DNA from: Nymphaea colorata
Taxonomy: Eukaryota > Streptophyta > Magnoliopsida > Nymphaeales > Nymphaeaceae
Length of the DNA stretch: 64,000 bases
Direction of reading: 5' to 3'
Assembly (NCBI RefSeq): GCF_008831285.2
Contig: NC_045138.2
Coordinates: 40,229,115-40,293,114 of the forward strand
Below the pieces are notes generated by a model. That model was not told the DNA's origin and did no database searches. It was given only the letters and a program-made list of their open reading frames with translations. This document shows, in pieces, positions 2,093 to 54,952 of the stretch. The position numbers and the translations under genes are program-made. Each line of letters starts with the position of its first letter. The first letter of the stretch is position 1.

Positions 2093-5000
2093 ATGGAGAG
2101 AAGTTGCTCTCCTTTCTCCCTCGCTAACGTCCCTCTTCTCTTCCTCTTGACTCTATGCCAACATCACAAGCTCGTCTCAAGCTTCGCCGTGGGCAACCAT
2201 CGCCCCGTGCCCGCGATCTTTGTCTTCGGCGACTCGACCGTCGATCCGGGCAACAACAACTACTTGCCCACTCCGGTCAAGGGCAACTTCCCGCCCTACG
2301 GGTTCAGCTTCCCCGATCATATCGCCACCGGAAGATTGTCCGACGGAAAACTTGCCACCGATTTTATAGGTATCGTCTGCCTGGTTCTCCATGTCTTTAA
2401 TAGATCATTCAATTGTTTGGCACTGATCTTTCTTGACAATTGTGAATGGAAACATTGTTGAGCAGCGTCGTATTTGGGGATCAAAGAACTGGTACCTCCC
2501 TACCTGGATCCTACGCTGGACGAGCGTGAGTTGCTGACCGGTGTTAGCTTCGCCTTCGCCGGCTCCGGCTACGACCCACTGACCGCTGACAACATAGTAA
2601 TCTCTCTCGCCCTCTCTCTTTCCATGCATTCTCGCAAATGCATCGTACAACCAGTGGCGTAGCTAATACATTAGCCCACAAAATTTACTTTATTTATATA
2701 TATAATTTTTATTAATTTTTAGTTTTTTTTTCATATAAATGCTCATTAAAGTTTCAAATTTAAACTTAAATTGTCATTTACTAAAAAATTTCTAGCTCCA
2801 CCATAGTTCCCTTCAGGGCAAATAAGCTATCAGAGGGTTTAAAACATGATAAGTTTTGATTTATAAAGTTGAGCATTGTTAATTGTGTCCATCTGTATGG
2901 ATTGAATTTATAAGAAACCATACTCATAGCATGAGACATATTTTAAACACAAGAAACAGTAAGAACGCGTGGCAATATGGTAGACTTGACTCCACTAGAC
3001 GTTGAATTACGGGCCCGACTGGTCATGTAGACTGATACTTGACATCTTGAGTTTTTACTTGCCACCATGTTAAGTTAAGGGGCGGAGTTGGGTAGGGCTC
3101 ACAAGAGTTATAGCCCACTTGAAAAAAAAAAAAAAAATTACGTATAACATTTAAAAATGTTCACTTGTACTATATAAAAATTTTTAAAAATGATTTTTTT
3201 TACCTATGTCAATTTGAAAACTTTAATTCGAATCCTCGGCTCTGCCCCTTATCGCGTCTACCATGGATACTAGCAATAATTTATGAAGGTAGTAGTTTCA
3301 AATTTAAAGCCCTTCAAATTTGTTGGTGCCTGTCTTTTTCCACATTGGTGGTGGAACAGATTTTTTCATAATCGATAGGAATGTTTGTGGCGGTGCAAAT
3401 TTAAAGTGCTTGAATTCTATCGGTGCCTGTCTTTTTCTCATAGTTAACCGGAAAATTTGATGGTGGTGGAACAGACTTGTTTATGAGATGGGGCCTGGGG
3501 GTGCCAACATTTACCAATATTTTGGCTGATCTGTAGGATTGTTCCGCAGTTCAAAGAGAGGAACACGTTTTAGAAAGAGAGCCGAGCAACCCTTGAAGTT
3601 CATCGAGAGTTCCAGGCAGACGAGAAAGCTTATGTTTGATTTAACCTAATCTATTGAAAAAAATTGTAAAATGGTACCGAACGTTTGTAAATTTAAGAGA
3701 ACGAAGCATATTGTGTTTCAGATATTGCATAAAATGCACGTATGAACTCTGATATATGTATGGACAATATTTATGTTTGCATTAGGGTGTGGTTTCAGTA
3801 CTTGAGCAGCTGGACTACATGAAAGAGTGCTTGGCCAGAATGGAGAAGCTAGTTGGAAAGGCAGGAGCTGCCAAGATCATGGAAGACTCCATATTCACAG
3901 TAAGTGCAGGAACAAATGACTTCGTTATCACTTACCACCTCCTTCCCTTCAGGAAGAAAACCTTCACCTTAGAGGAGTATCAACAGTTCATTCTTCATCA
4001 ACTTCAATTCTTCCTCAAGGTACGTTAGAGCGATTCGCTGATTGGTTTCACTGCAAATGCAATTTGGCTTACAAGAATCATTTTCGGATTAAAGGAGAAA
4101 TAAGATCTCGTATTTGTTTCATCAAATTAATAACTGTATCTCAGCTTCTAGATGTTAATTTCTTGAGTAATAACATAACAACAGTGCACCTTTCCAGGAG
4201 CTATACCAACTTGGAGCACGAAGAATTGCATTTGCAGGGCTGCCTCCTTTGGGGTGCTTGCCAGTCGTGATGACCACCGACTTTGGAGATGCATTCATCC
4301 GACGATGCATTGACAGTATGAACATGGCGGCAGCCAGCTACAACTCCAAGCTACGAGACATGTTGAATGAGATGAAGGAAGAAGAACTAAAAGATGCAAA
4401 GATCGCGTATTTGGACATTTATACTCCCACGCTCGACATCGTAGAGAATCCGAACAAATACGGTGAGTCAATAAACTAGTTTGAAATGGTTTATTATGTG
4501 TGCCTGCTTAAATTAATTCTCAAAATAGGTAAATTATCTTGTAAAATGTTTCCTTAAAGATCGAGTTTCCTGTCAAAGGGAAAAAGAAGGGGGTTTAGGA
4601 TATTTTGAAATTTTTTATAAAGTAATGTACATTTTGAACTTTTTTTTTATACTTTTTTTGTCCTTTTAAAAAGCTTTTTTACTTAAATAAATACATTTTT
4701 GTCATTGTACATCGTGTGCACAATTTTTAGTGCACATAACCAGTCTTTTTATTAGTGATCGATACACTTTGTCTCAACTTTCAAAGCTGCAGGATCTAGA
4801 CGAACATGACTACTTCACTCTCCTGATGCTGCCTACTGCTTTCAAATCTAAGTTTATTGAATAAAACTTTGATTTTTTTTTTATGAAATCAAAGTAACAT
4901 TGATTTAAAAAATTCAAAAATGTAAACAAATAAAATCATTATGTATATATATATATATATATATATATACCCAGTTCTTTTTAAAACTTACCACACACTC

Positions 5001-5268
5001 GGCACCTATGTGACATAATTTGAAATCCAACAACTACAGTTTCGAAAAATAGGAAATGGCAATGGTTGTCTGCGCAGGGTTTGAGGTGACCAACAGAGGG
5101 TGCTGCGGAACAGGGTTGCTGGAAATGGGAATCTTGTGCAATCACAAAACACCCATCTGCCCAGATGTGTTCTCCTACGTGTTTTGGGACTCCGTTCACC
5201 CCACGCAGAGAACCTACTCCTTAGTTGCCAACTCAATCATCCAGGGAGCTTCTCCTCTTCTCCTTTAA
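2093..5268 (+). CDS. GDSL esterase/lipase, copy 2 (complete, five exons, 365 aa)
   Basis: Exons are 2093-2369, 2466-2596, 3786-4019, 4198-4462 and 5078-5268; all introns are GT-AG and phases agree, giving 1098 nt. The protein starts with a hydrophobic segment (about residues 1-31, signal peptide). Block [13 protein letters not shown], carries the nucleophile Ser48. The other SGNH blocks follow: [10 protein letters not shown] (oxyanion Gly), SAGTNDF (Asn) and [10 protein letters not shown] (Asp and His). From memory it looks closest to Arabidopsis At5g45960 (shared SYLGIKE-VPPYLDP and GSGYDPLT). The length fits the family (about 350-380 aa). The 1189-nt intron 2 holds two MITE-like elements. 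It is probably a secreted ester hydrolase; substrate unknown. The ATG chosen is the first one giving a signal peptide in frame with block I. No defect is visible. Confidence 0.93.
2652..2804. repeat. MITE-like element in intron 2 of GDSL copy 2 (GGCGGAG family, copy B)
   Basis: An AT-rich stretch of about 150 bp with imperfect inverted ends, AGTGGCGTAGCTA on the left and TAGCTCCACCATA on the right. It resembles 3077-3250 and 30829-31016 in ends and internal layout. No clear target duplication was found. Confidence 0.5.
3077..3250. repeat. MITE-like element in intron 2 of GDSL copy 2 (GGCGGAG family, copy A)
   Basis: About 174 bp starting AAGGGGCGGAG and ending CTCTGCCCCTT, so the two ends are inverted repeats with a single mismatch over 11 bases. 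The middle is AT-rich with a poly-A run near 3121-3137. It is short and non-coding, as expected of a non-autonomous DNA transposon. No convincing target duplication is visible. Confidence 0.6.
4600..4765. repeat. Dispersed repeat in intron 4 of GDSL copy 2
   Basis: A T-rich stretch ending in a pair of TGCAC-type motifs (GTGTGCACAATTTTTAGTGCAC near 4716). Its reverse complement resembles 40799-40990, including the TGCACCAAAATTTGGTGCAC motif and the following A-rich tract. This points to one dispersed family present in both orientations. Confidence 0.4.
4943..4970. repeat. (AT)n microsatellite
   Basis: An uninterrupted AT dinucleotide tract in intron 4 of GDSL copy 2, about 110 bases before the last acceptor. 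Confidence 0.95.
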
Positions 5269-9253: not shown

Positions 9254-9301
9254 AATGGGTAGGACTATATATATATATATATATATAGTCCTACCCATTT
9301 A
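9254..9301. repeat. Perfect palindrome with AT core
   Basis: AATGGGTAGGACT on the left is matched by AGTCCTACCCATT on the right, separated by an alternating AT tract. The whole 48 bp can fold into one long hairpin or cruciform. It could be a tiny fold-back element or an AT microsatellite inside an older palindrome. Confidence 0.8.
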
Positions 9302-11033: not shown

Positions 11034-14000
11034 ATGGAGAGACGTTCCTTTTCTTTTCCCCACGCCCTCTTCCTCCTCCTCCTCCTGTTGATTGTGTGTG
11101 AGCTGCCGGCGCTGGTCTTGAGTTCCGGCGCGGGCAAACAGTTCAACCATTCCGTCCCCGCGCTCTTCGTCTTCGGCGACTCGACCGTCGATCCGGGCAA
11201 CAACAACAACTGGCCCACGCCCTTCAAGGGCAACTTCCCGCCCTATGGCGCCAGCTTCCTCAACCAGGCCGCCACCGGCAGGTTCTCCGACGGAAAACTC
11301 ACCACCGACTTTATTGGTATATGGTCTCTGTCTCTCTAAAAGAGTTCTAAGCAAGTCTCGAATTCGTTGTCTTCAAGTCATCTTTTTGAACGTTAGTTTT
11401 GTTTAACATTGATGTTTCCTGACGATTATGAATGAAAAATTGATTGAACAGCGTCGTACTTGGGGATCAAAGAGCTGGTTCCTCCCTACATGAATCCTTC
11501 GCTTGAACAGCACGAGATGATGACCGGCGTCAGCTTCGCATTCGCCGGCTCCGGCTACGACCCAATGACCGCTCATACCAGCGTAATCTCTCTCTGTTAC
11601 CTATATATAGACTAAGTGAACCATTAATCTGGTTATTAAAGTCACCCAACCATCGATCTAAAAAGCAAACCAATGGTTGAGAGAAAAATAAAAATAAATT
11701 ATATATAAATTTTTGTTTTTTTTCTTAACCGTCCATTCTATTATATTTGGATAGTGCAGATTAGATGACAAGATGATGATTCTACAGTGATTCAATTATA
11801 TATATATATATATAGTTTTCCTCCATCATGTTGACATTAAATGGTTGGATATATAAATATATATATATATATAAACCGACAATTCCTTCTTTACATCAAT
11901 TTGATGTTCTCTGGCTAGAAGGGCGGAGCTAGATGTTGCCCTTGAATCATGTTCCTTTCATTAACGTAGAGGTTGCAGTTTGAAAGAATCAAAAGATTTG
12001 CATCCTTGGGGCTTGCAAACGGCAACCAATACGTTCAAACTATGCTAAGATAATCTTGCAGCAATTGTTATATTTAATTTAGATTAATTTTACAAAAAAA
12101 ATATTTTTTTTGACGACCAACAAAGATTATGAATACTAAAGTACCCCAAAAAAGGGTAATAGCAATGTACTTTGAAGGGTCGTGCGTGCGAGTGAGCCCC
12201 AGGTTGACCGAGGGTGATGCACATTTAATGACAAGTGCTCTCACTCTTCAAGACCTGACCGACCGACTTGACTCACTTGGACTTAGTGAGCCCCGGTCTT
12301 AGTGTTACTATCAAGCAACTTAAACGATACATTTAGGAGTTTTGGCTAAGGAGCGGTCCTGATCGCCTCACTTAATAAGGTGGAACGAGTGGCTCGAGAC
12401 TTAACAGGCGCATCTTGACTTTGCCCCAACCACCACATCCATGTATACTTGTTATAGTTAGAAAACAAAGTTTGGCTATCCACCAATCACGTTTACTATT
12501 ATATAATTTCTAACATGATAAGTTCGAAAGCAATTAGGTAAGGCAAGATCTGTATATAATAAAATAGATTTAAAATATCCAGTATGTGCGCTTTGGTGGG
12601 TTATGTTAAAAGCAGTTTCCTTCAAGTGAACGTCAAAAAAAAAAAATCTCTCCTTCCATTTTTTGTCATCAAAGGGGGTGGGGGTATTTTCGTCATTTAC
12701 ATCCCAAACATATAACCTCACCGCTGCTGCTCCCTGCCTCCCTAATTTGGTGTTTATTAATTTATGTATACATATAGACTCATATATATATTTGACATCT
12801 ATGTTTGCAACAGGGTGTGGTTTCTGTACCCCAGCAGCTGGACTACATGAAGGAGTGCGTGACGAAGATGGAGAATGCAGTTGGAAAGGCAGCAGCTGCC
12901 AAGATCATGGAAGACTCCATCTTCATAGTAAGCGCAGGAACGAACGACTTCGTTATTAGCTACCACCTCCTTCCCTTCAGGAAGCAAACCTTCACCCCAC
13001 AGGAGTACCAACAATTTATTCTTGATCAACTTCGAGTCTTCCTCAAGGTACGTTACAGCGATTCATTGCTTGGTTTCATAACTAGGACTTCAAAGAAGAA
13101 GGTCAATAGTCCAATACCAGGAGTATGATTCAGTAGTTGGCATAATGATATGAGTTCTTCCAACTCCTGCTAATTCAAACTTTTTATCAGAATCTCAATG
13201 TAATCAACTGTTTCCATGTACTCGTAACTCTGATATTTATATTATCAATGCATTGCTGACTGCTTTTCTATTTATTTGACATTTTGATGTTGGTTTCTAG
13301 AGGTTAATTTCTAAAGATGTCCACCTTCCAGGGGCTGTATGAACTTGGAGCACGAAGAATTGTATTTGCAGGGCTGCCTCCACTCGGTTGCCTGCCGGTT
13401 GTGATGACCACCAGCATTGTGGACGCATTGATCAGACAGTGCATCGACAGTCTAAACATGGAGGCACTCATCTACAACTCAAAGCTGCAGAATATGTTGA
13501 ATGAGATAAAAGCCAATGAGCTAAAGGATGCAAGGCTTGCTTATGCAGACATTTATTTTACCCTTCTGGACGCCATAAAGAACCCAAGCAAATATAGTGA
13601 GTTACTGCAGCTTAAAAATGCTTCTATTTTAAGCTTAAATTATAAAAAAGTCTTTAAGATTATTAGTTGGTTTTGAATTGCGTGAACCGCTTTTCAACTG
13701 AAGCAGAAAGGGAGCATTTTTGACCTGGGATCGTCTGAAGATTCGATCTCCTTAGTTTACTGTCCTCTGTTTTCAATCCTGGCAACTACACAGTCGTGTA
13801 AAAGCAGGAAATTAAACAATTAGTCTTGTTACAAAAATTGAGCCAAACTAGGATGATTTTGTGATCCTTCTGCTTGTGTCAATTGTTTCTACAGGTTTCG
13901 AGGAGACGAAAAGAGGCTGCTGTGGAACAGGCTTGCTGGAAATGAGCTTCTTGTGCAATCCCGGCACACTAACCTGCCCAGATGTATCATCATACGTGTT

Positions 14001-14088
14001 CTGGGATGCGATACATCCCACGCAGAAGATTTACTCTTTAGTCGCCAACACAGTCATCCAACGGGTTCTTCATCTGCTTTTACAATAA
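11034..14088 (+). CDS. GDSL esterase/lipase, copy 3 (complete, five exons, 368 aa)
   Basis: Exons are 11034-11316, 11452-11582, 12814-13047, 13332-13596 and 13895-14088 (1107 nt), all GT-AG with matching phases. The N-terminus (to about residue 30) has a seven-leucine signal-peptide core. Block [13 protein letters not shown], holds Ser50. It is followed by [26 protein letters not shown] and WDAIHPTQK, so all four SGNH catalytic positions are present. The protein looks At5g45960-like and probably secreted; substrate unknown. Exon 4 ends in A instead of G before the donor, so the junction codon is AGT (Ser) where the other four GDSL genes have Gly; the donor is still GTGAG. Exon 5 is three bases longer than in copies 1, 2 and 4 (one extra C-terminal residue). 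AATAAA overlaps the stop codon. Confidence 0.93.
11800..11875. repeat. (AT)n tracts in intron 2 of GDSL copy 3
   Basis: Two alternating AT tracts, near 11800-11814 and 11858-11873, lie within the 1231-nt second intron. Around 11922-11945 a GGCGGAGCTAGATGTTGCCC motif resembles the left end of the GGCGGAG MITE family, but no right end was found. Confidence 0.6.
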
Positions 14089-15997: not shown

Positions 15998-18900
15998 ATG
16001 GCGACCAGTTCGCTCTCTGTTCTTCCTCATGGCTATCGCCGTCACTCCCATGGCGTCTTCCTTCTCTTGTTGTTTCTCTGGCAGCAGCAGCTTCTCTGGA
16101 GCTCCGCCGGGGCGACACAATTGAATCACAGCCTTATAGATCAGCTGAACATTTCCATCCCTGCGCTCTTCGTCTTCGGTGACTCGACAGTGGATCCAGG
16201 CAACAACAACTACCTGCCGACGGCATTCAAGGGCAACTTCCCACCTTACGGGTTGAGTTTCAGCAATCACATCCCAAGTGGGAGGTTTACTGATGGAAAA
16301 CTTGCCACCGATTTTCTTGGTATTCACTTTCTCTGTCTCTCTCACTCTTTCTGTCTCTCTGGTTTTAATTTTTTGCCTGTGTTTGGAAAAAATGGAACAG
16401 TTTCCTACTTGGGGATCAAAGAACTTGTGCCCCCTTACTTGGATTTCACACTTGGTGTGCATGATTTGCTGACTGGAGTTAGCTTCGCATCTGCTGGTTC
16501 TGGCTACGACCCATTGACAGCCCAAAGCACTGTAAGTCCGTCCCTCTCCCTCTGTCTCTCTTTAGATTGAGTGAATGTCACGAGTTCGTCTTCATTTTAC
16601 GTAAAAGACACGCGCCAGAACACAACAAAAGGAGACCGATGAAGCAATGTAGTTCTTTACGCTTTATTTTCCTTTTTATCATTTCTATATGTCTCCAAGA
16701 GTAAATCTTCGGCTGCGCTAAAGGATAGGCACGAATTAGGTGCTCTGTCCATTCCATGCAAGTTACGCTACACGCCATATGGGTTCGTCACTTTCAAAAT
16801 GAGTACTATTCCATGATTTCAGACAAATCAAGCGCCGTTATCACGGATATTATACTTATCTTACTGTGACCCATCATTATTTTGTTAGGATGGTACAAAA
16901 ATGAACCTGACGTCATGGCGATCTCTAACTTATGATTCTTTCTCTTTTTTTCTTTGAAGTTTTGACAAATGGGTTCTTAATAAGGTTACGGAAAACAATG
17001 ATTTTTAGACTAAAAAATGAGAAAGGAGAAGGGTTGATGGTGCATTAGAGGGGCTTACTTTGAAGTTTGAGGGATTGTGCTAGGAGAAATGAAAAAGGAA
17101 GAGTCGACTTGAATTTTTTGGTAATAAGTATAAAAGAATCCTGTTAGGCAGCAGTTTCTGGTTGATTTTCCAGATCGATCGGTCGCCATCTTGCTGTGTT
17201 GATCTCCGGCCGGCCGGCCGGTGGCAGTGGTGCAGCAGAGAGGTCTGCAGTTGCTTTTTCCCTACTGTAGATTGGAATCCTGGAAACTTTCTCTCTTCGT
17301 TGCCCACGTGAACTACATTGGAATTTTGCGGTCTGTCATTTTTCCCACTCCCAGAGCTTCTGAGGAAGATTCCTAGCAAACGGCCCTTGTTATGGCGAGA
17401 GAGCGGCTTTTATATTATCTTGGGATGCGGTTTCCCTCGATGGAAGTCATGCCTTTTCTCCGTAGCGTGTCGCACGAGTTGCGGTTCGATCAAAATTTTC
17501 ATTGAACCACGACCAGGATGTCAAATACTTTGATTTTGAACAGCTCCTCCTGTTCCAGCAGTCCCTTGTAAATGTGATCATAACGATGCGATCTATGACA
17601 CAAAAACCAGGTTTTTGATGGTTCAAAACTGACGATCCGAACTTTTCTCATGGGTCCTACATCATTATACAAGCATTAATCTTTGGGATGAGTAGAAGCT
17701 GCCCTAAAAAAGGTCAAAGCCCTGCCTTTATGGGATCCTGATTTGTTTAGAGACTTTGGTTCTCATAATACACTCGTTAACTAGAGTATTACATTGCCAC
17801 CATTTACAGTAAAAAAAAAAAAGCGCTTGCAGAAATCAAAATAACAATCAATATGGTACGGTACTCGACTGAGGAACTATACCAAACGGATGAACAACAA
17901 TTTTGTACTAATCAAACTATTCACATCAGAAGGATGTACTTAATCAATTTTCATAATTAGTTTGGATTTTAGGTTGGATGTTGATCAGGTGGGTACCAAC
18001 TTCATAGTTCATTGCTATTTGATAAGAATGGAGGCTGTTTGGGTTGGATCAGTTAAATGTGTCTAAAATTTGATTCGGCTGTTCTCATACAGCCCAAAAA
18101 AAAAAAAGCTAAAATCACTTTTACATAATTAAGTCGCTCACTATAATTTGTGAGCTTGAAGGGGTATAGAGGAGCTGGTACTGATAGGTGTGAGAGCTAA
18201 TCCATGGATGCTATAACCTTGAGTATCATGGTGTAAATTGTGATACCGAGTTGAAGCTATATTATAGCTCACTACGCCCCAATGTAATTCTATAGAAGCC
18301 AGAGAAAGGAGAGAGGAGGGTCTCAGGCCTTTAGGCACATCTAGCGATGTCAGAGGTGATAAATCAAGCGCGTCCACATGGTGTGGATGTTGGAGATAAA
18401 AATACGTGAAAGAAATTTTCACTTTGAATACTGTATCGTGATCACCAACATAAAATTGAAGTGAAATAGGCGGACCATGTATCAGGAAAATTACAACACA
18501 CCAGAAATTGGAAAACATATGGTCTATTTTTATAATTATGGTCAAATTTCTTGGCCCACAGACACTGAATTTCCCCAGAAGAAAAAAAATTGAGCAAACG
18601 CCATGAGACCTGGCATCTGTGACGTAAATGGGGTCCTCGATGCGGCGCCTTTGTACCTTTCCCAGACAAGCCAGCTGCACTCTGTTCTTGATGGGTCCTA
18701 GAAGAAGAGAACCCGTGATACCACTAGACCTTCCTTTTTAGCTCTTTTATGTGTGTATGTGGATATGTGTGTGCATATACAAAGAGAGAGAGAGATAGTG
18801 GAAGATGAAGTAGAAGAAGAAATCAACACCCACTCGGAACTATTGTTTTCTCTTCGTACAGGACATCAATTTCTAGTCTCACGTTCTAGAAGCATTGCCT

Positions 18901-20974
18901 CTGTGATTTAATGAACCTAGTGCGAACCAGGACCCTTGTGTCTCTGACAAGGCCTTAGGAGCGTAAAGCAAATGGCCAACTGCATGTGTTTCTGCTGTCA
19001 AATTATTCATCACAACCTGCAACCCCGTGAAGTCTCGTCAGTATTTCCATGTGTAGTAGACGTTATTATTCAGTACTGTTCACGGAGACGTACATAGCAA
19101 GAACTTTACCTACATGAGATTTGATCTGGTGACCTGCCCTTTTTCCTACTAATATGAATATAAAATATGTTACCATGTCATGGTTTGATCTGCAATATGT
19201 CTAAACTCTGATATTTTGGAGATTTCTGTATGAATTAGAGTGTGCTTCCAGTAAATCAGCAGCTGAACTATATGAAAGACTGCTTGGCTAGAATGGAGAG
19301 TGCGGTTGGGAAGGCAAGAGCTGCCAAGATCATGGAAGAATCCATTTTCTTAGTAAGTGCAGGAACAAATGATTTCGTCATCAGCTACTTCCTTTTTCCC
19401 TTAAGGAGGCGTACGTTCAACCTAGAACAATACCAACTGTTCATAATAGATCAACTCCAAGTCTTCATTAAGGTGCGTGCAATGATTTCCTGATTGGTTT
19501 CACTGTTAGAAAAATAAGTTAAAGATCATTTTGCCATCCTACTTCACACATTCGTAACCCAAGGATCAGGGGATTTTAACTTTGGTAACACCGTAACTGA
19601 GATAATTTGTAGAACAATTAAAATATCATCGTTATGTGTTTCTACTTTCTTGTCAGTGTGTTGTAGAGTGCCTGATTCAAGTCAAGGACCAATAAGCCAA
19701 GTAGTTTGCGTTCATTTGTTTTAAGATGCTACTATTTCATTTTCTTCGCTCTGTTGTTAGGACAAAACAGAGGAGCGACCTACCATCCTTTAGTTTGGTC
19801 TAGGAACCTAGTGCTTTTCACTATTAAGTTTGTTAGTCAAATATATACTCCCTATGTACTTTTAAGAATAAACAAACTACCAAGTCTCTTCGACATCCCT
19901 CACTTTTCCAATTCAACAATAACAGAAAGATATGTGCTTTCCAGGGGCTATATGATCTGGGAGCGAGAAGAATTTTATTTGCAGGGCTTCCTCCACTCGG
20001 CTGTTTGCCCATAGAGATGACCATCAATTTTGCAAATGCAGTACTCAGACAATGCATTGACAGTCTAAATTTGGTGGCTGTCAGTTACAACTCGAAGCTC
20101 CAGCATATGCTAAACAAGGTGAAGGAAAGCGAGTTAAAGGATGCAAATATTGTCTATGCAGACATCTATGAGCCTTTGCTAGATGCCATAAAGAACCCAA
20201 ATAAATACGGTAAGCTAATACAGATGCAAGCAGCTTCGTGCTTAGATTATCAGCCACCCTATCACAGATCAATTTGTAACTTTGTGATAGTTATCAGCAA
20301 CGCATCGATGAGTATAAACCTCAAACTAAACAGTGGGGCTGATTCCATAGAAAGAAAAAGCCAATTACCCCTTACTGGATCTAGATATCTTTTACTTTAC
20401 TTTCCTGTTTCTCCCACCTGAGAGTCATTGGCTGTAGATATTGTTTCTTAGTTTTGCTCTTTACATCTTAAGAGCTTTCTTCGTGCATGCACTAAATTGT
20501 CCGTTTTCACATGATTGGAGCTATTACTGCCTAAAAATGATGGCGTACACTAGTTCACAGTCTAATCACTCCCTGCTTCTTCAGTTAATAAAGATGCAAA
20601 GTGATTATTTCATGATTCTGGTTCTTACATATTCTCATGCCTTCAAGCCTTCAATTGTCATCCCGTAACTGTGTTTCGAACAGTTCAAAATAAACTTTGT
20701 TGATGAAATCAAATAAGCCTATCATTTAATTTCATCTGTGTATATCTTACCACTATTCTCTGCATTTGCTAATCTTTCTGCAGGTTTTAAGCAGACCAAC
20801 GTAGGTTGCTGCGGAACAGGCCTGTTGGAATTTGGCCTTTTATGTAACCCCAATACACTTGTCTGTGCTGATCCATCAACATATGTATTCTGGGATGCAA
20901 TTCACCCCACACAGAGGACCTACTCTTTGATTGCTGATGCACTCATCCAGCGAGTCCTTCATCTGATCTTATGA
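15998..20974 (+). CDS. GDSL esterase/lipase, copy 4 (complete, five exons, 380 aa)
   Basis: Exons are 15998-16319, 16401-16531, 19239-19472, 19945-20209 and 20784-20974 (1143 nt), all GT-AG and in phase. The N-terminus has a long hydrophobic signal segment (about residues 20-38) and three NHS/NIS sequons before block [13 protein letters not shown] holds Ser63. [26 protein letters not shown] and WDAIHPTQRT supply the rest of the SGNH site. I chose the ATG at 15998 because it follows the GA-rich leader and opens directly into a signal peptide; an in-frame upstream ATG would add about 60 residues of GA-encoded low-complexity sequence. Intron 1 is only 81 nt and is open in frame. Intron 2 is 2707 nt, the longest in the array. 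A copia element starts 558 bases downstream. Confidence 0.92.
16532..19238 (+). other. Long intron 2 of GDSL copy 4
   Basis: A 2.7-kb intron, against about 1.2 kb for the same intron in copies 2 and 3. It includes a CCGG-rich patch near 17205-17222, A-runs near 17812 and 18098, and a GA tract near 18784. Several short frames (for example minus strand 18141-18680) have no recognisable domain and no splice support. No complete transposon was identified to explain the extra length. Confidence 0.6.
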
Positions 20975-21532: not shown

Positions 21533-21822
21533 TGAAAAACCTCAAGAATATCATGAAAGAGAGAAAGAGAGGACACGAGTTTATACTGAAATCTCTTCTC
21601 TATTGTATATGATTGAGAATACAACAAATATATGGAGTACAATTGATGAGAGGCTACAACAAAATAAGGCAAGATATAAAAACGTATCAGATCCACAATT
21701 ATAGGGGATTGACGTTTTTTATCTCTCGCTAATCAGATCCACAATTACAGGCTCCTAAATCTCTTGCCAATTAGATCCACAATTGTAGGCTCGTCAATCT
21801 TCATCCAAAACCTTCCTTAACA
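21533..21822 (-). repeat. 3' LTR of the copia element (left in the window)
   Basis: 290 bp beginning TGAAAAACCTC and ending TTAACA on the plus strand. It aligns along its whole length with 26035-26324. A motif around AGATCCACAATTATAGG recurs three times within the LTR. Confidence 0.92.
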
Positions 21823-21840
21823 GTCTCCCGCAATCTGAAC
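21823..21840 (-). promoter_or_regulatory. Polypurine tract of the copia element
   Basis: On the minus strand GCGGGAGAC sits immediately before the 3' LTR, where the plus-strand primer for reverse transcription is expected. It is short and one base is a pyrimidine. Confidence 0.55.
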
Positions 21841-21849
21841 GGCGGTTCT

Positions 21850-22450
21850 ATGTTGAGATTGTTTCTGAAAGTCGTGAACTTCATTCCTCCAAGAGCCTTT
21901 GTCATCCCATCTGCTAGTTGCTCTTTGGTTTGAATAAAGTTTACTTGTATCTCTCCCTTGTTGACATGATCTCTAATGAAGTGAAAATCAATTTCATCAT
22001 GTTTGGTACGAGCAGAAAGACTGGATTTGCTGTTGGGTATAAAGCACCTATATTATCGCACCATAGGACCAGTGTATCTTGTGAGGAGATCTTCAATTCT
22101 TTGAGAAGCGATTTTAACCATAGTATTTTAGCAACAACACAGGCTAGGTATTTGTACTTAGCTTCAGTGCTGGATCGAGTTACTGTCCTTTATTTTCTGG
22201 AGGCCCATGAGATAACATTATTTCCTAAAAGAGCAACAAAACCATTAGTCGACTTTCGGTCTTCCAGACTTCCAGCCTAGTCTGCATCGGCATAGATGCT
22301 TAATTGCAATGAAGGTGATTGAGTCAAGCGAAGAACATAATGATTTGTGCCTTTTAAATACCAAAGTATTCTTTTAACCATTGTCCAATGAGCCACTTTG
22401 GGAGAGTGCATGAACTGACAGACACGATTTACTGCAAATGTAATATCAGG
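21850..22450 (-). pseudogene. Copia RNase H remnant
   Basis: On the minus strand the frame shows the Ty1/copia RNase H signature (ADAD followed by AGSLEDRKST, then SSTEAKY, and further on a WCDN-like motif). The Trp expected between ADAD and AGS is replaced by a TAG stop at 22277-22279. The fold is recognisable but the frame is broken, so this is a dead copy. Confidence 0.8.
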
Positions 22451-22689
22451 GCATGGTCAGTGTAACATACTGTAACGCACCTATCACACTCCGATATAGC
22501 GTGGGATCCGAAAAGGAGGATTCTTCAATGGCTGTGACATTTTTGATAGTCACCATGGGAGACATCGTGGTCCGTTTTAGCTTTGTGAAGAATGCTATTA
22601 ATGTAATTTTGTTGGCATAGGTATATCTCCTCGGGATGTCGCTTGACTTCAATGCCTATAAAATAGGTGAGAGGGCCAAGATCTTTAAC

Positions 22690-23430
22690 CGAAAAAATGG
22701 AACCAAGCTATGAAATGATATGAGAAATGGGAGCTGGTGCAGACCCGGTGATGATCAAATCATCAACGTAAACCAGAAGATAAAGTTGATGCCCATCACG
22801 AGAGTAAATAAACAAGGATGCATCAGATTGAGACACCACAAAACCAAGATCAATAAGAAAGCAGCTCAGGCGATGATACCATGCATGTGGAGCCTGCTTG
22901 AGTCCATAGAGTGTTTTATCTAATTCGCAAACATAATGAGGAAATGTGGTATCTTGAAATCCCTCGGGTTGAGCCATATAGACATCTTTGGAAAGATACC
23001 CATTAAGAAATGCATTGTCAAAATCAAGTTGCCGTAAAGACCAACCAAAGTGGGCAGTTAGAGAGAGTAACACTCTGATAGTGGTGGGTTTTATAGTGGG
23101 ACTAAAAGTTTCTTAATAGTCATTGCCAGCCGTTTGAAGAAAACCCCGACCGACAAGTCGAGCTTTATGCCATGTAATGGAACCATCAAGGTGACGTTTG
23201 ATTTTATAAACCCATTTGGAACTGATGACATGGAGATTTGGGTGTGGGGATACAAGATGTTCTGTTTTTCTGCAATGCTGAGAACTCATTTTGCATAGTA
23301 TTAAGCCAACACGCTGATTGAATGACTTCTTTAAAATTCTCTGCTTCCTCTTGTGTTGTGATAGATGAAAAAACTTTTGGTTTTGATGAACCAGTCATGG
23401 AACGGGTCAACATTGGATGAAATCAAGTGG
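22690..23430 (-). pseudogene. Copia reverse transcriptase remnant
   Basis: The minus-strand frame from 23073 to 22708 contains [11 protein letters not shown], the LYGLKQAP motif and the YVDD catalytic box, which are diagnostic of Ty1/copia reverse transcriptase. A TAA stop at 23113-23115 falls where a residue just before the conserved ETFSP motif is expected, and the upstream part continues in a different frame. It is inactivated. Confidence 0.88.
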
Positions 23431-23526
23431 GATGATCAAGACTAGTGGTGACAACATCAATAGCCAAATTGGACGTAGTTGGTGCATCCAGAACTGATGG
23501 GTGTCACTGATGTAGGATTTGTAGCC

Positions 23527-24480
23527 TTATTGAGCGATAGACCGAGGTGAAATCGTGGCAGAGGTTTTAGCCATTGGAAGGGGTAACACAGTATATGTGG
23601 AGGCTGGCGTGGACTGTGTTGGATCACACATTGAATCAACTAGACTAGAAGGAGAGCCGTAGGTCGTATTTGGCAGCCAATGAGAGAGTAGTTCATCTGA
23701 GAAATCCTCAGGACAATCGGACCCATCGGTATGAGTTTCATCAAAGACAACATGCCGAGATATAAGAATGCGATGATGTCTCTTGTCATAGCATAAATAT
23801 CCTTTATGATGACTAGTATAACCCAAGAAAATACATGGAATAGTCTTGGGCTGAAATTTGGAATCATAAGCATCAATAGTGGATAGCATGTGGTTCCAAA
23901 AACCCTCAAGTGTGCACATTCTGGATCCTTGTGATTTAACATATAAAAGGGTGATTTGAGCTGTAATTTCAACGATGGTAAATGATTGATAACATAAATG
24001 GCAGTGTGAAAAACATCAACCCAGAAATTATAGGATAATCCAGCATCATAAAGCATACTTAATCCTCTCTCGACCATATGACGATTTTTCTGTTCAACAA
24101 TTCCATTTTGTTCCGGAGTGTAAGGGCAAGAAAATTGATGCAGAATCCCATGTTCATCACAGAATAAAGCTAAGTCAGAGTTCACAAATTCTTTGCCGAG
24201 CATATATGTGCATTTAACTGCTTTTCAATCAAGGTCTTAAAATTCTTGAAACATATAACAACTTCAGACTTAGCTTTGAGAGAAAACAACCATAAAAATA
24301 TAGAATAATCGTCAACGATGAGTAGAAAGAACCTGAATCTCTCTCGAGAGGTGGTCGGGGCATGTCCCCATACATCCATGTGAAACATTTCAAGAGGTTG
24401 TAGGCTTGAAAATCAGAAGTTGGAAAGGGTTGCTTATGTGACTTTCCTAAAAGACAAGACTGACGTACTCCTTTTGGAAT
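23527..24480 (-). pseudogene. Copia integrase and GAG-pre-integrase remnant
   Basis: Minus-strand fragments show a pre-integrase motif (WRLGHAN, then SCLLGKSHK), the integrase core start (FHMDVWG), and the CPYTPEQNGIVEQKNRH block with its catalytic Glu. Downstream is the GYTSHHKGYLCYD region typical of copia. The domains are split among at least three frames, so small indels have broken the open reading frame. Confidence 0.85.
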
Positions 24481-26019: not shown

Positions 26020-26032
26020 AGCGCTCTGATAT
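26020..26032 (-). promoter_or_regulatory. Primer-binding site (initiator Met tRNA) of the copia element
   Basis: On the minus strand ATATCAGAGC begins three bases inside the 5' LTR border. The usual plant copia site is TGGTATCAGAGC, so the core TATCAGAGC matches while the first TGG is degraded. Confidence 0.75.
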
Positions 26033-26034
26033 GA

Positions 26035-38897: not shown

Positions 38898-41800
38898 ATG
38901 GGGAGACAGTCTGCCATGGTGGTGGTGGTGCTTCTGCTGGTGACGATCGAGTGTGTGGTGGGGGTGCAAGACGCTGAGATACTGCATGACCCCAAGCTCA
39001 GGGAGAGGGCAAGGCGAAACAATATCAGCTGCCTCCTCGTCTTTGGGGACTCCAGCGTAGACCCAGGAAACAACAATGTCCTCAACACCACCTTCAAGGG
39101 CAACTTCTTGCCCTACGGCATCGACTTCCTCCACCACCAGCCCACCGGAAGGTTCTGCAATGGCAGACTCACCACCGACTTCATAGGTACGTACTGTCTC
39201 TTCTCCGGCAAAATGGTCCCTTTGTTCTTTCCATTACTTACTCCCCACTTGGCTCATCTTCTTGCTCTCTTTATTGTCACTTTCTTTTCTGAGAAAATGA
39301 TTCGTTTACGAGAACATATAACTGGATCTTTGATATGTTTTAGCTTCTTAAACTCGTGGAAGTCTTTGAATCGTGCTTCTTTCGGGCTGCTTTTCAGTTT
39401 CCTTTTCTTTCTTCCTTTGGGTGAATTTGTTGACATCATACGAATCCTGGGCCTGAAGAGCCTTAAGGATGAAGATGGTAGGTATTTCTGCAGGTTTATG
39501 ATGCATGCTCATCTTGATTGCGTGGCGTCCGCCATCGCCATCACCACCATCGTTATCACCATCACTTTTATCCAGGACTGAGTAATTGGTCCTGTCCAGC
39601 CCCTTGTGTTTCTAAGTACTGAACTTGGTATCTGTAATTTAAGTTGTTCCAGTACTTTCTTCAGTCTCAGCAGATCCTTAAGTATGTCTTGATTTGGTTA
39701 CTACATCTCTTTAAATTTAGATGTTAGCAACTCAAGGTTAGTTTAAGTTTGTTTTCCTGCTTCAATCTTTGCATTAGAACTCTGTCAAAGTTATTTAATT
39801 TCTTTCACAACAAAAGCGGTTGGAAGCACGTTTCATGTGATACCATGCCCAGTGGTCCAAAGTCGTCACTGCATACTCACAATCTCGTACCAAGGGAAAA
39901 TTTTTCAAAGTTGAGTTTTTCTCAGAAAAGAAAAGGAAAAGAACTCATAAGATAATTAAAAAATACAAAAAAAAAAACATAAAGGGAGGGACTGTTTGGA
40001 TGACATGTAAAAATTTGGTTTTCACGTGAAAGGCCAGTTTTGTAAACTTGATTTGGATGTTTGGATGACAAGGGAAAAGCTTGGTTTTGAAGCAAAAATT
40101 AGTTTCATACGTGAGGTAAAGTAGGTTTTTCAGATCTTTTACGAAAACTGTGTTTTGCCAAAACTAAGTCTTAACAAAACCCAATTTTAAATGTCAATTA
40201 AACATTTTTGAAATTGTGTTTTAAGGTAAAACCAGGTTTTGTCTTAGTTTTAAGTTGTCTTCCAAACACCCCATAAACAATATAAGAAAACCTAAAAAAC
40301 TGATTCTACTTCCACACAATTGTTTTTTCTAAAATATCGTGCTTGCATCGGGTATTTAAATATCACGCGACAAAATGACCCCGTTTTGGCCAAACAGTCG
40401 ACATAGACCGTGATGTTCCACACTGTTCCCGAGGAGGAGGAACAACTAAGATCACGTCTTGAAGCACATTTAATTAGCTCTTAATGAAAGTTCTTCAAAT
40501 TTCAACCCTCCATGAAGCCAGATAAATTGCAAAAAAGAAAGAAGGGAAGACTCAGATAATTAATGACCCGTCACCGTCAGGGGCAACTTTCACTTTCAAC
40601 GCGACAATCACAAGCCCTATGTGAGTCCGAGAAAGGCCCTCTTTATTGCAGGTGATGAACACACGAATATAAAAGCCTTGGAGTTACCATTCAATAGGTC
40701 ATGAGGTTGGTCAGAGACCAGAGCTGTGCACCCAACTCAACTAGTTGGGTTGCAAGTGATTGATGTTGTTTGTTTGAAGGATTCCTCTATCGAAATTGAT
40801 TACTGTGCACCAAAATTTGGTGCACATGTGTGTAGTAATGTCTAAAATACTTTTATTAAACTAGTAAAAAACATCTTAAAAGGATAAAAATTGTAAAAAA
40901 GTAAAAAAAAAATCTAAAATGCCCAGTTTTATTATACAAAATGTTAAAAACGCTCCCATCTCCCTTTTAGTGCATATTTGTTGTGAATCAAGGGCCTTCG
41001 ATCAGGTCGATACTTAATCCCGCCCCTCAGCAGGAGATATATGTCATGCCAGTAGGAGACGAAGACTCAACACTTGTTTGCCCGAATAGATTGGTCTTTG
41101 CCCTTAATTTCTACGACTGTAAACCCCTGTGGGTTCTGGCGAGACATATTACTCATCATATTTATGAAGTCTGGTGGATTTGAAAGATGCCGTGTTTAGT
41201 TTAAAAAGGATGATCCCATTTACTGCAGCTGCTGTAAGTAAGCGAAAGGCAGATTTGGGATGTTGTGCCGGAATTATGTAGGCCCGCGTGGCTCTGACAT
41301 GGCCTGCCATCCAAGTGTTCGTCTCCCTTTTAAGCAAATGCACTGCCTGTGTCTCTCTGTGTGTGTGAACTAATCCTTCTGTTTCAGATTGTAGATTGTA
41401 GTGCTTATTCTGTTGTTTGTGTGGCTGTTACGGTTAGTCAGCTTCAAGTGGGGAGCAGACTCTGACAGAGTTGTGACTTATCGTTTCTCATGACAGGCAG
41501 ATAACTTTTGAGGGATCGCATCAAATTTATGATTTACATTAGTTAAAATCAGTGTTACATTCCCACGATAACTTTGATGTTTTTACACACCAGGCGAGCG
41601 ATAAAGTCTTCTGGCTTGAATGGCACACTAACCACTCGTTTGGGCCCTGGCCGTTAACTGGTCAAAGGTTTTTCTTTTTAGCACGCATCTCGCATTAATG
41701 GCCGCCACAACGAACGGCGAAGATGCATTCCTTTTTACTTGTCATGTTAGTAGTAGTGTTTGTGTGCATCTATTAAAAAAATGGTGAAGTGCTCATAAAT

Positions 41801-42601
41801 GGTACAAGCCCCGTGTCAAATGGAAGGAGCGTAGTGATCAGCTCCACAAATGGCACCTTGCTTGCGCAGTACGAGTCACGATAAGAACATGACAGTTTTC
41901 ACGTGGCTCACTACTGCGGATGTTCGCCCTTGTCAGCCATGGCGACCCTACGGCCAGGATGCAGGGGCTGTCTCCCTGAGTATTATTTCTCCATCACTGT
42001 TCAGTGGATCTAGTGAATTCGAAATGCATAATTGGAACGACATGGCTGTCCGCGTGTTCCTTGTTTGCTGTTTTTCTTTGTTTTTGAGTTCCCAGTCCCT
42101 GTACCGGGAGTTAACTGCAAATTCAAAATGCCAGCATAAGGAGCTTCTTCATCGTGGCAAAGAAGTTGCATCTATGTCAAAGTGTTGTGAAGTTTTTATG
42201 AAGTTAAACAGACCTGCGTGCTAGGCATGTTTGCGATATCAGTGTGTGGATAGAACATGCTCTCCATAATTAACTCTTGAGCTTCATACCAAGTAACCGA
42301 GTTTGTTTCATTTGCAGCTGAGGCCCTCGGCATCAAGTATGCAATACCACCTTTTCTAAAACCTGGACTTCGCAGGGAAGAACTTATACATGGCGTCAGT
42401 TTTGCATCTGCTGCGTCTGGATACGACGACCTCACCGCGAACCTTACCGTATGCACCTCTCTCTCTCTCTCTTATATATATATATATATATATAAACTGA
42501 GTGTACGAAAACTGTTTATATATATATATATATATATATAAAAACTGAGTGTATGAAAACTGTTTTTCCATCAAGGTAACCGATGGTGCACAAGGTGCTA
42601 C

Positions 42602-42643
<42 letters not shown>

Positions 42644-43921
42644 GTATGAAAACTGTTTTTCCATCAAGGTAACCGATGGTGCACAAGGTGCTTGTGCACC
42701 ATCGCTCTTTCAAAATTAATAACAAGTTACTGTTCATCTTTTCGGGGAAAGTAAGTTTACATATATTATATTGTGAACTATCAATCAAAGTTAATAGAAT
42801 GGCTTATGATTAGTTTACTTAATCCTCATGTTTACTTAATTCACAAACACAGACCTAAACTTAAGCATGACATGCATTTAGTGGTTTAGTAACATGTTCA
42901 TGGTGGTATGCAGAATGTCCTGCCGATAAGGAAGCAGATTCAATACCTAATGCATTACATGGTTCAACTGAGACAATTTGTAGGAGAGCAAAAGGAGAGG
43001 GAGACGATAAAGAATGCCATAATCGTGATAAGTGCAGGGACTAACGATTTCATTCAAAACTACTTCATTACTCCAGGACGCTCCAAAGAATTCACAATCG
43101 ACCAGTACATCGACTTCTTGATCAAGTGCTTGGCGAGGGATATCCAGGTAGTTTCCATTCCCTCACCTCTTCCCCTTTGCCTTAGAAAGATTCATCGGCC
43201 AAATCTCCATTACACCTGCCAACAATAGTGCTCATAGAAGATATCTGTTTGGCTGCATGCTTGAGTAATTCTTACATATGAATTCGTCCATACATCATGT
43301 AACAGGAGATGCATGCCTTGGGAGCAACAAGGTTTGTGGTCGTCGGGGTGCCGCCGCTGGGTTGCATGCCCCTGGTTCAGGCGTTGCATGGAAAGAATGA
43401 ATGCGTTGCGGAAATCAATCAGGTGGTTGTGAAATTCAACAACAAGATCAGGCAAAAATTGGACACGGCGAATCTATGGTTGGGTGCGCAGGCCACAACT
43501 ACATATGTTGACGCCTATTCCGTCCTTCTAAACGCTATTGCACAGCCTGCCAAATATGGTGAGCGAATTTCACACTTTCAACTATTAATGGCGCAAAATC
43601 CAGTGATCATTCTTTACAGTCTCCATCGATATCCATGACGTTAGATTGAAATCGTTTTTATTTTTCAAAGCATACTTGGCTATTCTTTATGAGCGATTAG
43701 CAGATTTACTAAATGAGGCGTTGCCTCTTGCAGGTTTCTCAGTGTCAACAAAGGGTTGCTGTGGATCAGGTGTGATAGAGTTTGGTGACACATGCAAGGG
43801 ACAGAGTACATGCAGTGATCCTTCGAAGTACGTTTTCTGGGATGCCGTGCATCCAAGTGAGAGAATGTATCAAATTATAGCAATAGAGGCCATAAAACAG
43901 GTCAACAAACAAATGATCTAG
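38898..43921 (+). CDS. GDSL esterase/lipase, diverged gene 5 (complete, five exons, 364 aa)
   Basis: Exons are 38898-39186, 42318-42448, 42914-43147, 43306-43558 and 43734-43921 (1095 nt), all GT-AG with consistent phases. A signal segment (about residues 6-22) is followed by a charged spacer and LLVFGDSSVDPGNNN with Ser52. [27 protein letters not shown] and WDAVHPSERM complete the SGNH blocks; the second Gly of the usual GSG in block II is kept while the first is Ala. From memory it is closest to Arabidopsis At5g45950 (RNN-SCLLVFGDSSVDPGNNN, GYDDLTAN, YVDAYS, WDAVHP), clearly distinct from the tandem copies. Exons 4 and 5 are 12 and 3 nt shorter than in copies 1, 2 and 4. Intron 1 is 3.1 kb and holds a MITE. 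Probably secreted; substrate unknown. Confidence 0.93.
39984..40272. repeat. MITE-like element in intron 1 of GDSL gene 5
   Basis: About 290 bp with ends GGGAGGGACTGTTTGGATGA and GTCTTCCAAACACCCC, imperfect inverted repeats around GTTTGGA-GAC. CATAAA occurs just outside the left end (39978-39983) and at the right end (40272-40277), a possible 6-bp target duplication. The motif GTTTGGATGACA is repeated inside (about 40060). Confidence 0.65.
40799..40990. repeat. Dispersed repeat in intron 1 of GDSL gene 5
   Basis: Starts with the fold-back TGTGCACCAAAATTTGGTGCACA and continues into an A-rich tract. Its reverse complement resembles 4600-4765 in intron 4 of GDSL copy 2. Confidence 0.45.
42456..42704. 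repeat. Compound AT, tandem and fold-back repeat in intron 2 of GDSL gene 5
   Basis: Eight bases after the exon 2 donor, a CT tract leads into three AT tracts separated by copies of AAACTGAGTGTATGAAAACT. A 58-bp unit ending CGATGGTGCACAAGGTGCT occurs at 42542-42599 and 42635-42692. The last copy runs into a perfect hairpin, with a 14-base stem at 42674-42687 and 42691-42704 and a 3-base loop. An inverted copy of ACTCAGTTTATAT lies at 42602. Confidence 0.85.
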
Positions 43922-52797: not shown

Positions 52798-53320
52798 ACT
52801 CAACCAAACAACTGCATCCAATTTGAGAGTTTTTCGAACGCTTAATTTCAGGGATACGTAACTAGCTAACTAACGAAATTTGCAATTTCCTGCATGGTGT
52901 TTACCAGAAATTGCATATTTGAGGAATCATCATATGATCAAGAAAGAGAACCATTAAGATAAAAACTAGTATTCATGCAATCCAACGATGTAATTCAAGT
53001 GCCAGGACTGCCCAACACACGAAAGGGGATCTAAAATTTCACCTTACAAAAGTGACACCAAATGAGGAAATAGAAGCAAAATGAGAAACAGAAAGGAGAT
53101 CAAAGCGCTGCACTACCACTAACTGATGAGCTCCACAGTTCACGTTAAGTCAGCATCTATATATACTTATACCTGCATTAATGAGGGGAAGTCAATAACT
53201 AGGAAAGGAACGGCGAAAGAAATCATAATGATTGAAACTTCTTCTTTTTTTTCTGAAGAGAAAAAAATGGATCTAAACACGAGTTATCTTCTTCAAGAAC
53301 CAGAACTGTCTGTCTCTCTA

Positions 53321-54952
53321 TCACTCTCTCTCTGTGCCCTCTGTAAGATTAAGAGAAATACATACCAGGTAGTAGAAAGCGCCATTTTGCAACGGCTGCA
53401 ATGTGACACCAAATTCATCAGTCATCACCGGCTGTCCGGAGGAATGAAGCAGCACAGCTTCCTCCCCAAAAGCTTCCCTTACATTTACAGGCATCGGCGC
53501 CACTTCGAATGCAAGATCATTAATAAACACCGTCAGTCTTGCAGAGCTGGAGGCAGAACCGCCCAAATCTGGAATACCCACAAACATCAAAGGCATGCAT
53601 CAATCCTGAAAACCATGAAATCAAGTTGCTTATTTTTCTCAGCTCTGTCTCTCTTTTACCTTGCAGTAATGGAGCAATGGCGTAATTCTGGTGAGGGCTT
53701 CCTACAACAACATTCAGCCTTTCGTCCTGTTTCAGCTGCTCATGGAGTTGCACCATGCTTGATAATTCAGAAAGAGAAGAGGGCGCAGAGAGGGAGGGAA
53801 ATGGAGCACTGTTCTGAAAAAAGAAGGATCGTGGGTCGTGAAGAGGGAATTGGTGCAGTGCTGGTTGGTAAAATCCGGCTTGATTAACGGAAGCAGTAGG
53901 AGTGGATGGAGAATTAACAGACTCCATGGCGTTAAGGTATGCACTTGATGACGTCCTTTCAGAGGAAGAGGATGAATTGGTGGTGGTGGTGGTGGTGGTG
54001 GTGACGGTGGCGGTGTTGGTAGTGGTGGCCGCTGTAGCGGCTGCAGTAGCAGTTGCAGTGATGGTGTTCATTTGAGGTGGTGGTGTTGCAGCCATAGAAG
54101 TGCTGGTGGGGGTTGAGAGATGAGTTTTTCCTGAAAGATGGCGCTGTTTGTGTTTGCTTCTGGACTTGCGATTTTGGAACCAGTAGAAAACATTGGCGTC
54201 ACCTACTTGACCATACTCTTGCAGCTGAGCTCTGATCTTCCTTATCTCATCCCTTGGTGGATTTACCATTCCAGAGTTGAAGATGGCCTCCAGTATCCTT
54301 ATCTGCTCTGGCTTCGGGTTCCATCTGGGTTTTGGCTCTGGGCTTCTTTCTTCACCTCCCACTGAGTGAAATATTTCAAGACATGTAAGATTACTTGTTC
54401 TTTTGTCATGTCAATGTTCCATAACACTAGGATGGAAATGGTACTGATGAAATGTCCACTGTGACAGAAGTATGGGTTTCATGCAATATTTTTACGATTA
54501 CACTTTCATTTTACGGGAACGAATCTAGGCATTTCGCCACCGTCTTCATCTTGCCAGAGAGCGAGAGGAAGAGAGAGCAGAGAGAGAGCGAGGGCATGAA
54601 TTTCTCAAAAATTTGTAACCATATGCACCAAGATTAGACAACCTTTATATTCATTCTCAAAGGTCATTTCAAGAACCCCCCCATCTGTCTCTCTCTATAT
54701 CACTCTCTCTCTCTCTCTCTCTACATCAATCAGTGGGTCTGAGGATTCATGAATGATTGTGGACATATCTGATGACCCAAAAGGTAAGAAAGGAGAGAAT
54801 AGCAGGAGAGACAGAAGAAAGAAATGATGAGTACCTGATGAATAGGGTTGCTTCTGGCAAGCCGAAATTATGTCATGCTGCCACTGGTGATGATGCGAGT
54901 TGCAGGGCTTAGACTTGAACATGCTGGGCCAGTGCCTGTTCGAAGAAGCCAT
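53321..54952 (-). CDS. WOX9: WUSCHEL-related homeobox transcription factor, WOX8/WOX9 (STIMPY) type, three exons, 355 aa
   Basis: Minus-strand exons are 54952-54835, 54361-53660 and 53568-53321 (1068 nt), with introns of 473 and 91 nt, all GT-AG and phase 1. The protein opens [16 protein letters not shown], the WOX8/9 signature. The homeodomain (about residues 50-115) begins [18 protein letters not shown] and its recognition helix reads [16 protein letters not shown], as in the intermediate WOX clade rather than the WUS clade. A Thr/Ala/Ser-rich stretch follows (about 125-175). The last exon encodes the conserved WOX8/9 C-terminal segment (TVFIND..., [21 protein letters not shown]). In Arabidopsis STIMPY/WOX9 sustains meristem and embryo growth and WOX8 acts in the basal embryo lineage; a similar nuclear role is inferred. 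A perfect donor (CTG then GTATGTA) near the end could remove the last residues by splicing into an unseen exon. Confidence 0.93.
53975..54065 (-). repeat. Trinucleotide-type repeat inside WOX exon 2
   Basis: GGT and related GTGGTGGTG runs on the plus strand encode the Thr-rich and Ala-rich tract of the WOX protein. Such coding microsatellites vary in length between alleles. Confidence 0.85.
54700..54722. repeat. (CT)n tract in WOX intron 1
   Basis: A CT tract in the 473-nt first intron, just downstream (coding sense) of exon 1. Confidence 0.85.

Follow-up and report, generated by a model that had tools for sequence, protein, structure and literature searches.

A probably ancient neighbourhood of GDSL lipase genes and a WOX8/9-type homeobox gene in the water lily Nymphaea colorata

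In a stretch of 64,000 nucleotides from the genome of Nymphaea colorata (from here on the window) a run of GDSL lipase genes lies beside a homeobox gene of the WOX8/9 type, which raises the question whether water lilies and eudicots have kept this neighbourhood from a common ancestor and, if so, what has held the genes together. A preliminary description of the window had placed Arabidopsis WOX8 at At5g45980, near the GDSL genes At5g45950 and At5g45960, and the published locus numbers agree with this; they also put SAG12 at At5g45890, a further GDSL gene at At5g45920 and Rop7 at At5g45970. In tomato the SAG12-subfamily proteases Rcr3 (Solyc02g076980), Pip1 (Solyc02g077040) and Pfp1 (Solyc02g077050) are numbered below a GDSL gene (Solyc02g077330), which is six locus numbers from WOX9, and below ERF.C.5 (Solyc02g077370); WOX9 itself is Solyc02g077390 (PMC10800405). 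According to the accessible parts of Lippman et al. (2008; PMC2586368), the surroundings of WOX9/S (COMPOUND INFLORESCENCE) are syntenic in tomato, poplar, Medicago and grape, the segment of 105–140 kb having at least seven genes in common, including two AP2-like genes and a WOX gene, and the wider tomato S region was matched to chromosome 1 of Arabidopsis rather than to chromosome 5. For eudicots the idea of WOX9 synteny is therefore not new, having been in print since 2008; an earlier statement of a linkage between GDSL and WOX8/9 genes was not found in a literature search of one open-access collection.

Four GDSL genes of one type, G0 to G3, lie in tandem on the plus strand and are followed on the same strand by a gene of a second type, G4. 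G0 spans −3044 to 1064, with exons 1–3 (−3044 to −918) in the left flank and exons 4 and 5 inside the window (77-341, 874-1064); its model is intact, with GT-AG introns, and encodes 371 amino acids. G1 (2093..5268; exons 2093-2369, 2466-2596, 3786-4019, 4198-4462, 5078-5268; 365 amino acids), G2 (11034..14088; exons 11034-11316, 11452-11582, 12814-13047, 13332-13596, 13895-14088), G3 (15998..20974; exons 15998-16319, 16401-16531, 19239-19472, 19945-20209, 20784-20974) and G4 (38898..43921; exons 38898-39186, 42318-42448, 42914-43147, 43306-43558, 43734-43921) have five exons each, GT-AG introns and a reading frame that is open throughout. Synonymous divergence (dS) is 0.40–0.58 between G0, G1 and G2 as against 1.12–1.19 between these and G3, which by this measure has diverged furthest within the tandem group of four. 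One GDSL type has thus been multiplied locally, as the preliminary description had it, and the genes named there are all present, positions 2093 and 54952 being the exact start codons of G1 (+) and the WOX gene (−); it had, however, overlooked the tandem copy G0 and an LBD gene at 63603.

All five genes are plant GDSL lipases (PF00657) and each carries the catalytic blocks GDS, GVSFA, GTND (within SAGTNDF) and WxxxHP. When five open reading frame fragments of the window's GDSL genes were compared with Pfam, one (19837-20418, exon 4 of G3; 35.6 bits) exceeded the Lipase_GDSL cut-off of 23.6 bits, another (43303-43635, G4) fell slightly below it with 22 bits, and the other three (15815-16567 from exons 1-2 of G3, and 42893-43225 and 38673-39578 from G4) had no Pfam match. 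For the GDSL type the solved structures gave nothing but weak bacterial matches (best E 1.2e-4). In a search with Lipase_GDSL across the genome (407.8 Mb, 14 large contigs), exon 4 of G0, G1, G2 and G3 scored above the cut-off in every case, and no exon of G4 was among the matches. The 70 matches form at least 33 clusters, that of the window included, and the share of the genome that is no more than 60 kb from a GDSL match outside the window amounts to at least about 1.1%.

G4 is only 39–41% identical to G0–G3. Its nearest relative within the genome, by summed score and identity, is on contig C9 and has exons 53–78% alike; the G4 type is therefore not recent in N. colorata. Further GDSL matches accompany the relative on C9, all on one strand, which suggests that a G4-type gene adjoined other GDSL genes already before the C9 duplication. 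Because own-genome searches found no WOX8/9, LBD or ERF match beside the C9 group, the duplication gives no confirmation of the linkage to WOX.

The homeobox gene (53167..54952) is read on the minus strand from exons 54952-54835, 54361-53660 and 53568-53366 and a predicted last exon of two codons (53172-53167). Its homeodomain (Pfam Homeodomain, E 1.7e-12) is of the WOX type, both matches among solved structures, STENOFOLIA and WUSCHEL, being its best relatives there; its N- and C-terminal motifs we take to match those of WOX9. The closest relative in the own genome is 51% identical and has a homeodomain presumably of the WOX11/12 type, and the own-genome search found no second gene of the WOX8/9 type. 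G4 and the WOX gene stand tail-to-tail with 9.2 kb between them, the 5′ side of the latter facing away from the GDSL genes and toward the LBD (LOB-domain) gene (63603..64000, plus strand, continuing past the right edge; Pfam LOB, E 4.7e-32), to which it is head-to-head across a gap of 8.65 kb.

Between G3 and G4 lie the remains of a Ty1/copia-type retroelement (21581..26221, minus strand; RVT_2, SH3_retrovirus), bounded by 140-nt direct repeats (21581-21720 and 26082-26221) that are 95% alike; these remains are not part of the old gene block. A motif scan of the six frames detected neither ROP nor AP2 genes in the window, and a scan for RNA genes there gave no tRNA and no Rfam match at the gathering threshold. 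In the left flank (−15.6 to −14.1 kb) there is a papain-type protease gene, whose best solved match is Triticain alpha and which, judging from its motifs, is perhaps of the SAG12 subfamily. In the right flank an ERF gene (AP2 domain; 71.9 kb), the one AP2-like gene found at this locus, follows beyond the WOX gene at a distance of 17 kb, and then a Rab gene (75.3 kb), the last exon of which, taken alone, has RABA1a as its best solved match (E 1.2e-51, with Rab-11B following at 8.1e-51); NCBIfam, run on five proteins, recognized nothing beyond a general GTPase domain in the Rab protein. Pfam identified a peroxidase gene in the flanks. Among twenty chosen flank reading frames seven matched Pfam, one of them with an X8 domain, and 13, including a frame of 686 amino acids (L015:447-2504), had no match at E 0.001. 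Near 117 kb an exon that resembled the 28-kDa phosphoprotein At5g46020 was dropped, as it had no Pfam match, and RABA1h as At2g33870, a putative neighbour of Arabidopsis WOX9, was set aside, that number being absent from the paper checked.

What keeps the genes together? It had been suggested that they share regulatory DNA, for example enhancers in the introns of neighbours. Comparing 16 segments of the window with one another (seven of the 20 GDSL introns, upstream stretches, the G3-G4 gap and the WOX flanks; blastn, word 11, low-complexity filter on, E 1e-4) yielded short repeats only, one of which pairs 26565-26696 in the G3-G4 gap with 50862-50992 in the G4-WOX gap (79%); nothing links the seven introns to the WOX flanks. 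Shared control DNA among these genes is thus unsupported, and the likeliest place for the control DNA of the WOX gene is the 8.65-kb gap toward the LBD gene. By analogy with some animal developmental genes, control DNA of WOX8/9 in or beyond the GDSL genes might nonetheless fix these in place, a reading that is compatible with common descent and offers only another reason for retention. The company that GDSL genes keep with a developmental regulator in distant plants would fit it, as would the first intron of G4 with its 3.1 kb, whereas those of G0–G3 measure 81–135 bases. We consider it unlikely all the same, for besides the result of the self-comparison and the orientation of the WOX gene, the C9 group has GDSL genes and no WOX8/9 match, and the array has withstood both tandem copying and a retroelement. 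It is likewise unlikely that a genomic regulatory block exists here in which WOX8/9 control elements, dispersed over the GDSL-LBD-ERF stretch, have tied these genes to one another from the first flowering plants onward. Passive retention is favoured by the tail-to-tail arrangement of G4 and WOX across 9.2 kb, together with the probable place of the WOX control DNA.

A single linkage is weak evidence of age, and it is the recurrence in other lineages that bears the weight. GDSL genes are abundant and clustered, in N. colorata as described above and in Arabidopsis with more than 100 genes (PMC8490726), and they could have reached WOX8/9 independently in separate plants, the more so as the gene order differs between these. 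Yet such a coincidence would have to place the window's WOX gene within the small part of the genome close to GDSL genes, and it would be needed in three lineages, with papain-type proteases as well and in two of them with ERF genes, while a WOX9 segment common to four eudicots has already been published (PMC2586368); we regard it as unlikely. It is also rather improbable that the linkage is old and that turnover in a GDSL-rich region has left subfamilies here that differ from those of Arabidopsis and tomato. The low identity between G0–G3 and G4 means that subfamily matters, but two unlike GDSL types stand by WOX8/9 here, Arabidopsis has two GDSL numbers there, and the relative on C9 shows the G4 type to be of some age in this genome.

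We therefore consider it likely that the GDSL-WOX8/9 neighbourhood is old and was kept by descent from the ancestor of water lilies and eudicots: GDSL genes stand next to WOX9 much as they do in Arabidopsis and tomato, so that the neighbourhood probably dates from an early flowering plant. Since GDSL, protease, ERF and Rab genes all belong to big families whose members cluster, matches at the family level may mislead, and the orthology of the genes is, like the common descent of their linkage, something that we infer; the likeness that the preliminary description saw between the tandem genes and At5g45960, and between G4 and At5g45950, may thus be taken as a putative correspondence. The ancestor would have had a papain-type protease gene, perhaps one of the SAG12 group, two unlike GDSL genes and WOX8/9 adjacent to one another, probably with an ERF gene. 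In the Nymphaea lineage one GDSL gene would have given rise to the four tandem copies, a copia element would have inserted between the two GDSL types, and relative to tomato at least one rearrangement would have changed the order around WOX; the genes most likely remain together because nothing separated them and not as a functional unit. The WOX9 neighbourhood known in eudicots would then extend, with GDSL and papain-type protease genes, to the base of the flowering plants, its protease possibly being related to the immune proteases Rcr3 and Pip1 of tomato, and it would offer a defined stretch for asking whether selection or mere inertia preserves plant gene order beside a developmental regulator.

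How far does the likeness to known loci go? The linkage block across flowering plants proposed in the preliminary description holds at the level of gene families, which recur by WOX8/9 in Arabidopsis and tomato according to the published locus numbers; the collinear order expected with it does not, as Rop7 and ERF.C.5 are placed differently from Nymphaea. LBD and peroxidase genes were not seen near WOX8/9 in either plant among the published locus numbers encountered.

In Arabidopsis (At5g45890-At5g45980) the papain-type protease, the GDSL genes and WOX8, families that are all found here, fall inside nine locus numbers. By number Rop7 separates the GDSL genes from WOX8, whereas the Nymphaea window has no ROP motif, and the locus numbers encountered in the Arabidopsis segment include no LBD gene, ERF gene or tandem quadruplet of GDSL genes.

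The eudicot WOX9/S segment has AP2-like genes near WOX9, as has Nymphaea with its ERF gene, although the segment was described from eudicots alone and has two such genes, and one was found in Nymphaea; the words GDSL and lipase are absent from the accessible text of that paper (PMC2586368). Tomato (Solyc02g076980-Solyc02g077390) has the proteases, the GDSL gene, ERF.C.5 and WOX9 in one stretch, again the families present here, with the proteases 34–41 locus numbers away from WOX9 and with ERF.C.5 between the GDSL gene and WOX9, whereas the ERF gene of Nymphaea lies beyond WOX.

The + strand of the window carries four complete GDSL lipase genes, namely G1, G2 and G3 of the tandem type and G4 of a second, divergent type, and the 3' end of a further tandem copy, G0, which is whole once the left flank is joined on. 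GT-AG introns divide each of them into five exons, the reading frame is open, and the catalytic blocks are present in all five. Exon 4 of G0-G3 passed the Pfam cut-off, one exon of G4 scored 22 against a cut-off of 23.6 bits, and Pfam found nothing in three of five GDSL fragments. A tblastn search (E 0.001) of 100 kb on each side found no more GDSL matches; the nearest other one among those listed is found on the left at a distance of roughly 170 kb (C1:40059172, same contig). The WOX gene (53167..54952, - strand) encodes a WOX homeodomain protein whose N- and C-terminal motifs we take to be those of WOX9. It stands tail-to-tail with G4 (9.2 kb between) and head-to-head with an LBD gene starting at 63603 (8.65 kb between). 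The preliminary description placed a possible ancient linkage block at 2093..54952, limits that agree with the start codons of the G1 and WOX gene models.

Remains of a Ty1/copia-type element on the - strand (21581-26221) separate G3 from G4; they comprise pieces of reverse transcriptase and SH3-like type, and their 140-nt direct repeats are 95% alike. Upstream of G2 lie a perfect self reverse complement of 46 bases (9254-9299) and a weaker one of 36 bases (9500-9535, 89%), and the second intron of G4 contains AT-rich tandem repeats of 48 and 93 bases (42473-42692). Two pairs of dispersed short repeats, possibly small transposons, were also seen, one inverted (30468-30589 and 33568-33694, 81%) and one direct (26565-26696 and 50862-50992, 79%), the latter linking the G3-G4 gap with the G4-WOX gap.

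ORFs reaching 110 aa or more in the flanks (100 kb per side) were inspected, and 20 chosen ones were run against Pfam; other genes there were likely overlooked. To the left, Pfam identified a two-exon papain-type protease (-15.6 to -14.1 kb), a plant peroxidase (-12.6 to -10.9 kb) and an X8-domain ORF (L011:1327-2103, -78.7 kb, E 2.7e-21), and to the right an AP2/ERF gene (71.9 kb) as well as the final exon of a Rab gene (75.3 kb), for which RABA1a is the best solved relative, barely ahead of Rab11. Two left-flank ORFs without a Pfam match at E 0.001, L012:3886-4386 (-66 kb) and L013:5745-6284 (-54 kb), presumably resemble SPOROCYTELESS-type and bZIP34/61-type proteins, respectively.

Among G0, G1 and G2 dS is 0.40-0.58, and between these and G3 it is 1.12-1.19; G4 shares 39-41% protein identity with the other copies, at a dS that is saturated or unreliable. 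Since a duplication peak of Nymphaea colorata is reported at dS ~0.9, G3 would have split off before that duplication and G0-G2 multiplied after it, a rough comparison as the dS methods differ.

The WOX protein had 20 matches in the genome, three of them exons of the gene itself. Because the runner-up, a gene at C9:6.446 Mb, carries a homeodomain that we assume to be of the WOX11/12 type, the window's is the one WOX8/9-type gene found. For G4, 78 matches were listed (112 of 269 candidates scored). The closest relative that they include outside the window, judged by summed score as well as identity, is a candidate gene at C9:17975165-17979993; its pieces are 68, 62, 55, 53 and 78% alike, and the one at 53% spans two stop codons. 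The top-scoring single piece belongs to a gene at C8:17.894 Mb (126.5 vs 125.5 bits, 39%). GDSL matches follow on the same strand of C9 (17984426-17991141 and 17997993-18000169), which suggests that a G4-type gene already adjoined other GDSL genes before duplication. Genome searches found no WOX8/9-type, LBD or ERF match adjoining this C9 group: the nearest WOX homeodomain on C9 (17.509 Mb, 35% alike) is 466 kb off, the nearest ERF 2.8 Mb, and no LBD match was listed on C9. The C9 duplicate is therefore no test of the GDSL-WOX link. Two more large groups of GDSL matches lie at C6:7.07-7.53 Mb and C1:28.04-28.13 Mb.

Shared regulatory DNA in neighbours' introns, which had been offered as a possible reason for the linkage, found no support: when seven of the 20 GDSL introns, the WOX flanks and upstream stretches were compared with one another, only short repeats came out, and no repeat joins a GDSL intron to a WOX flank (enhancers without sequence likeness would escape). 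Most likely the linkage was inherited without shared function. As to chance, the 70 GDSL matches listed genome-wide form 33 clusters (at 100 kb) and, the window's matches excluded, the stretches within 60 kb of a GDSL match make up at least 1.1% of the genome and those within 40 kb at least 0.75% (lower bounds, 150 of 195 candidates scored). GDSL-WOX linkage in a single genome is unremarkable; that it recurs in three lineages along with a papain-type protease is more notable, although the neighbours were picked post hoc.

Locus numbers run in chromosome order. Those published for Arabidopsis include SAG12 (At5g45890), the GDSL genes At5g45920 and At5g45950, At5g45960 (annotated as GDSL esterase/lipase), Rop7 (At5g45970) and WOX8, whose published number, At5g45980, is the one given in the preliminary description; WOX9 is At2g33880. 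In tomato, the SAG12-subfamily proteases Rcr3 (Solyc02g076980), Pip1 (Solyc02g077040) and Pfp1 (Solyc02g077050), a GDSL gene (Solyc02g077330), ERF.C.5 (Solyc02g077370) and WOX9 (Solyc02g077390; PMC10800405) are found. A simple match to Arabidopsis chromosome 5 is disfavoured because markers of the wider tomato region are syntenic with chromosome 1, according to Lippman et al. (2008; PMC2586368). In that paper the WOX9 segments of tomato, poplar, Medicago and grape, 105-140 kb long, have at least seven genes in common, two AP2-like genes and a WOX gene among these. A search of one open-access library, mostly at title level, found no paper that describes GDSL-WOX8/9 linkage. Synteny around WOX9 was already known in eudicots; added here are a C9 GDSL duplicate without WOX8/9, GDSL and papain-type protease genes as members of the neighbourhood, and its likely reach to a basal flowering plant.
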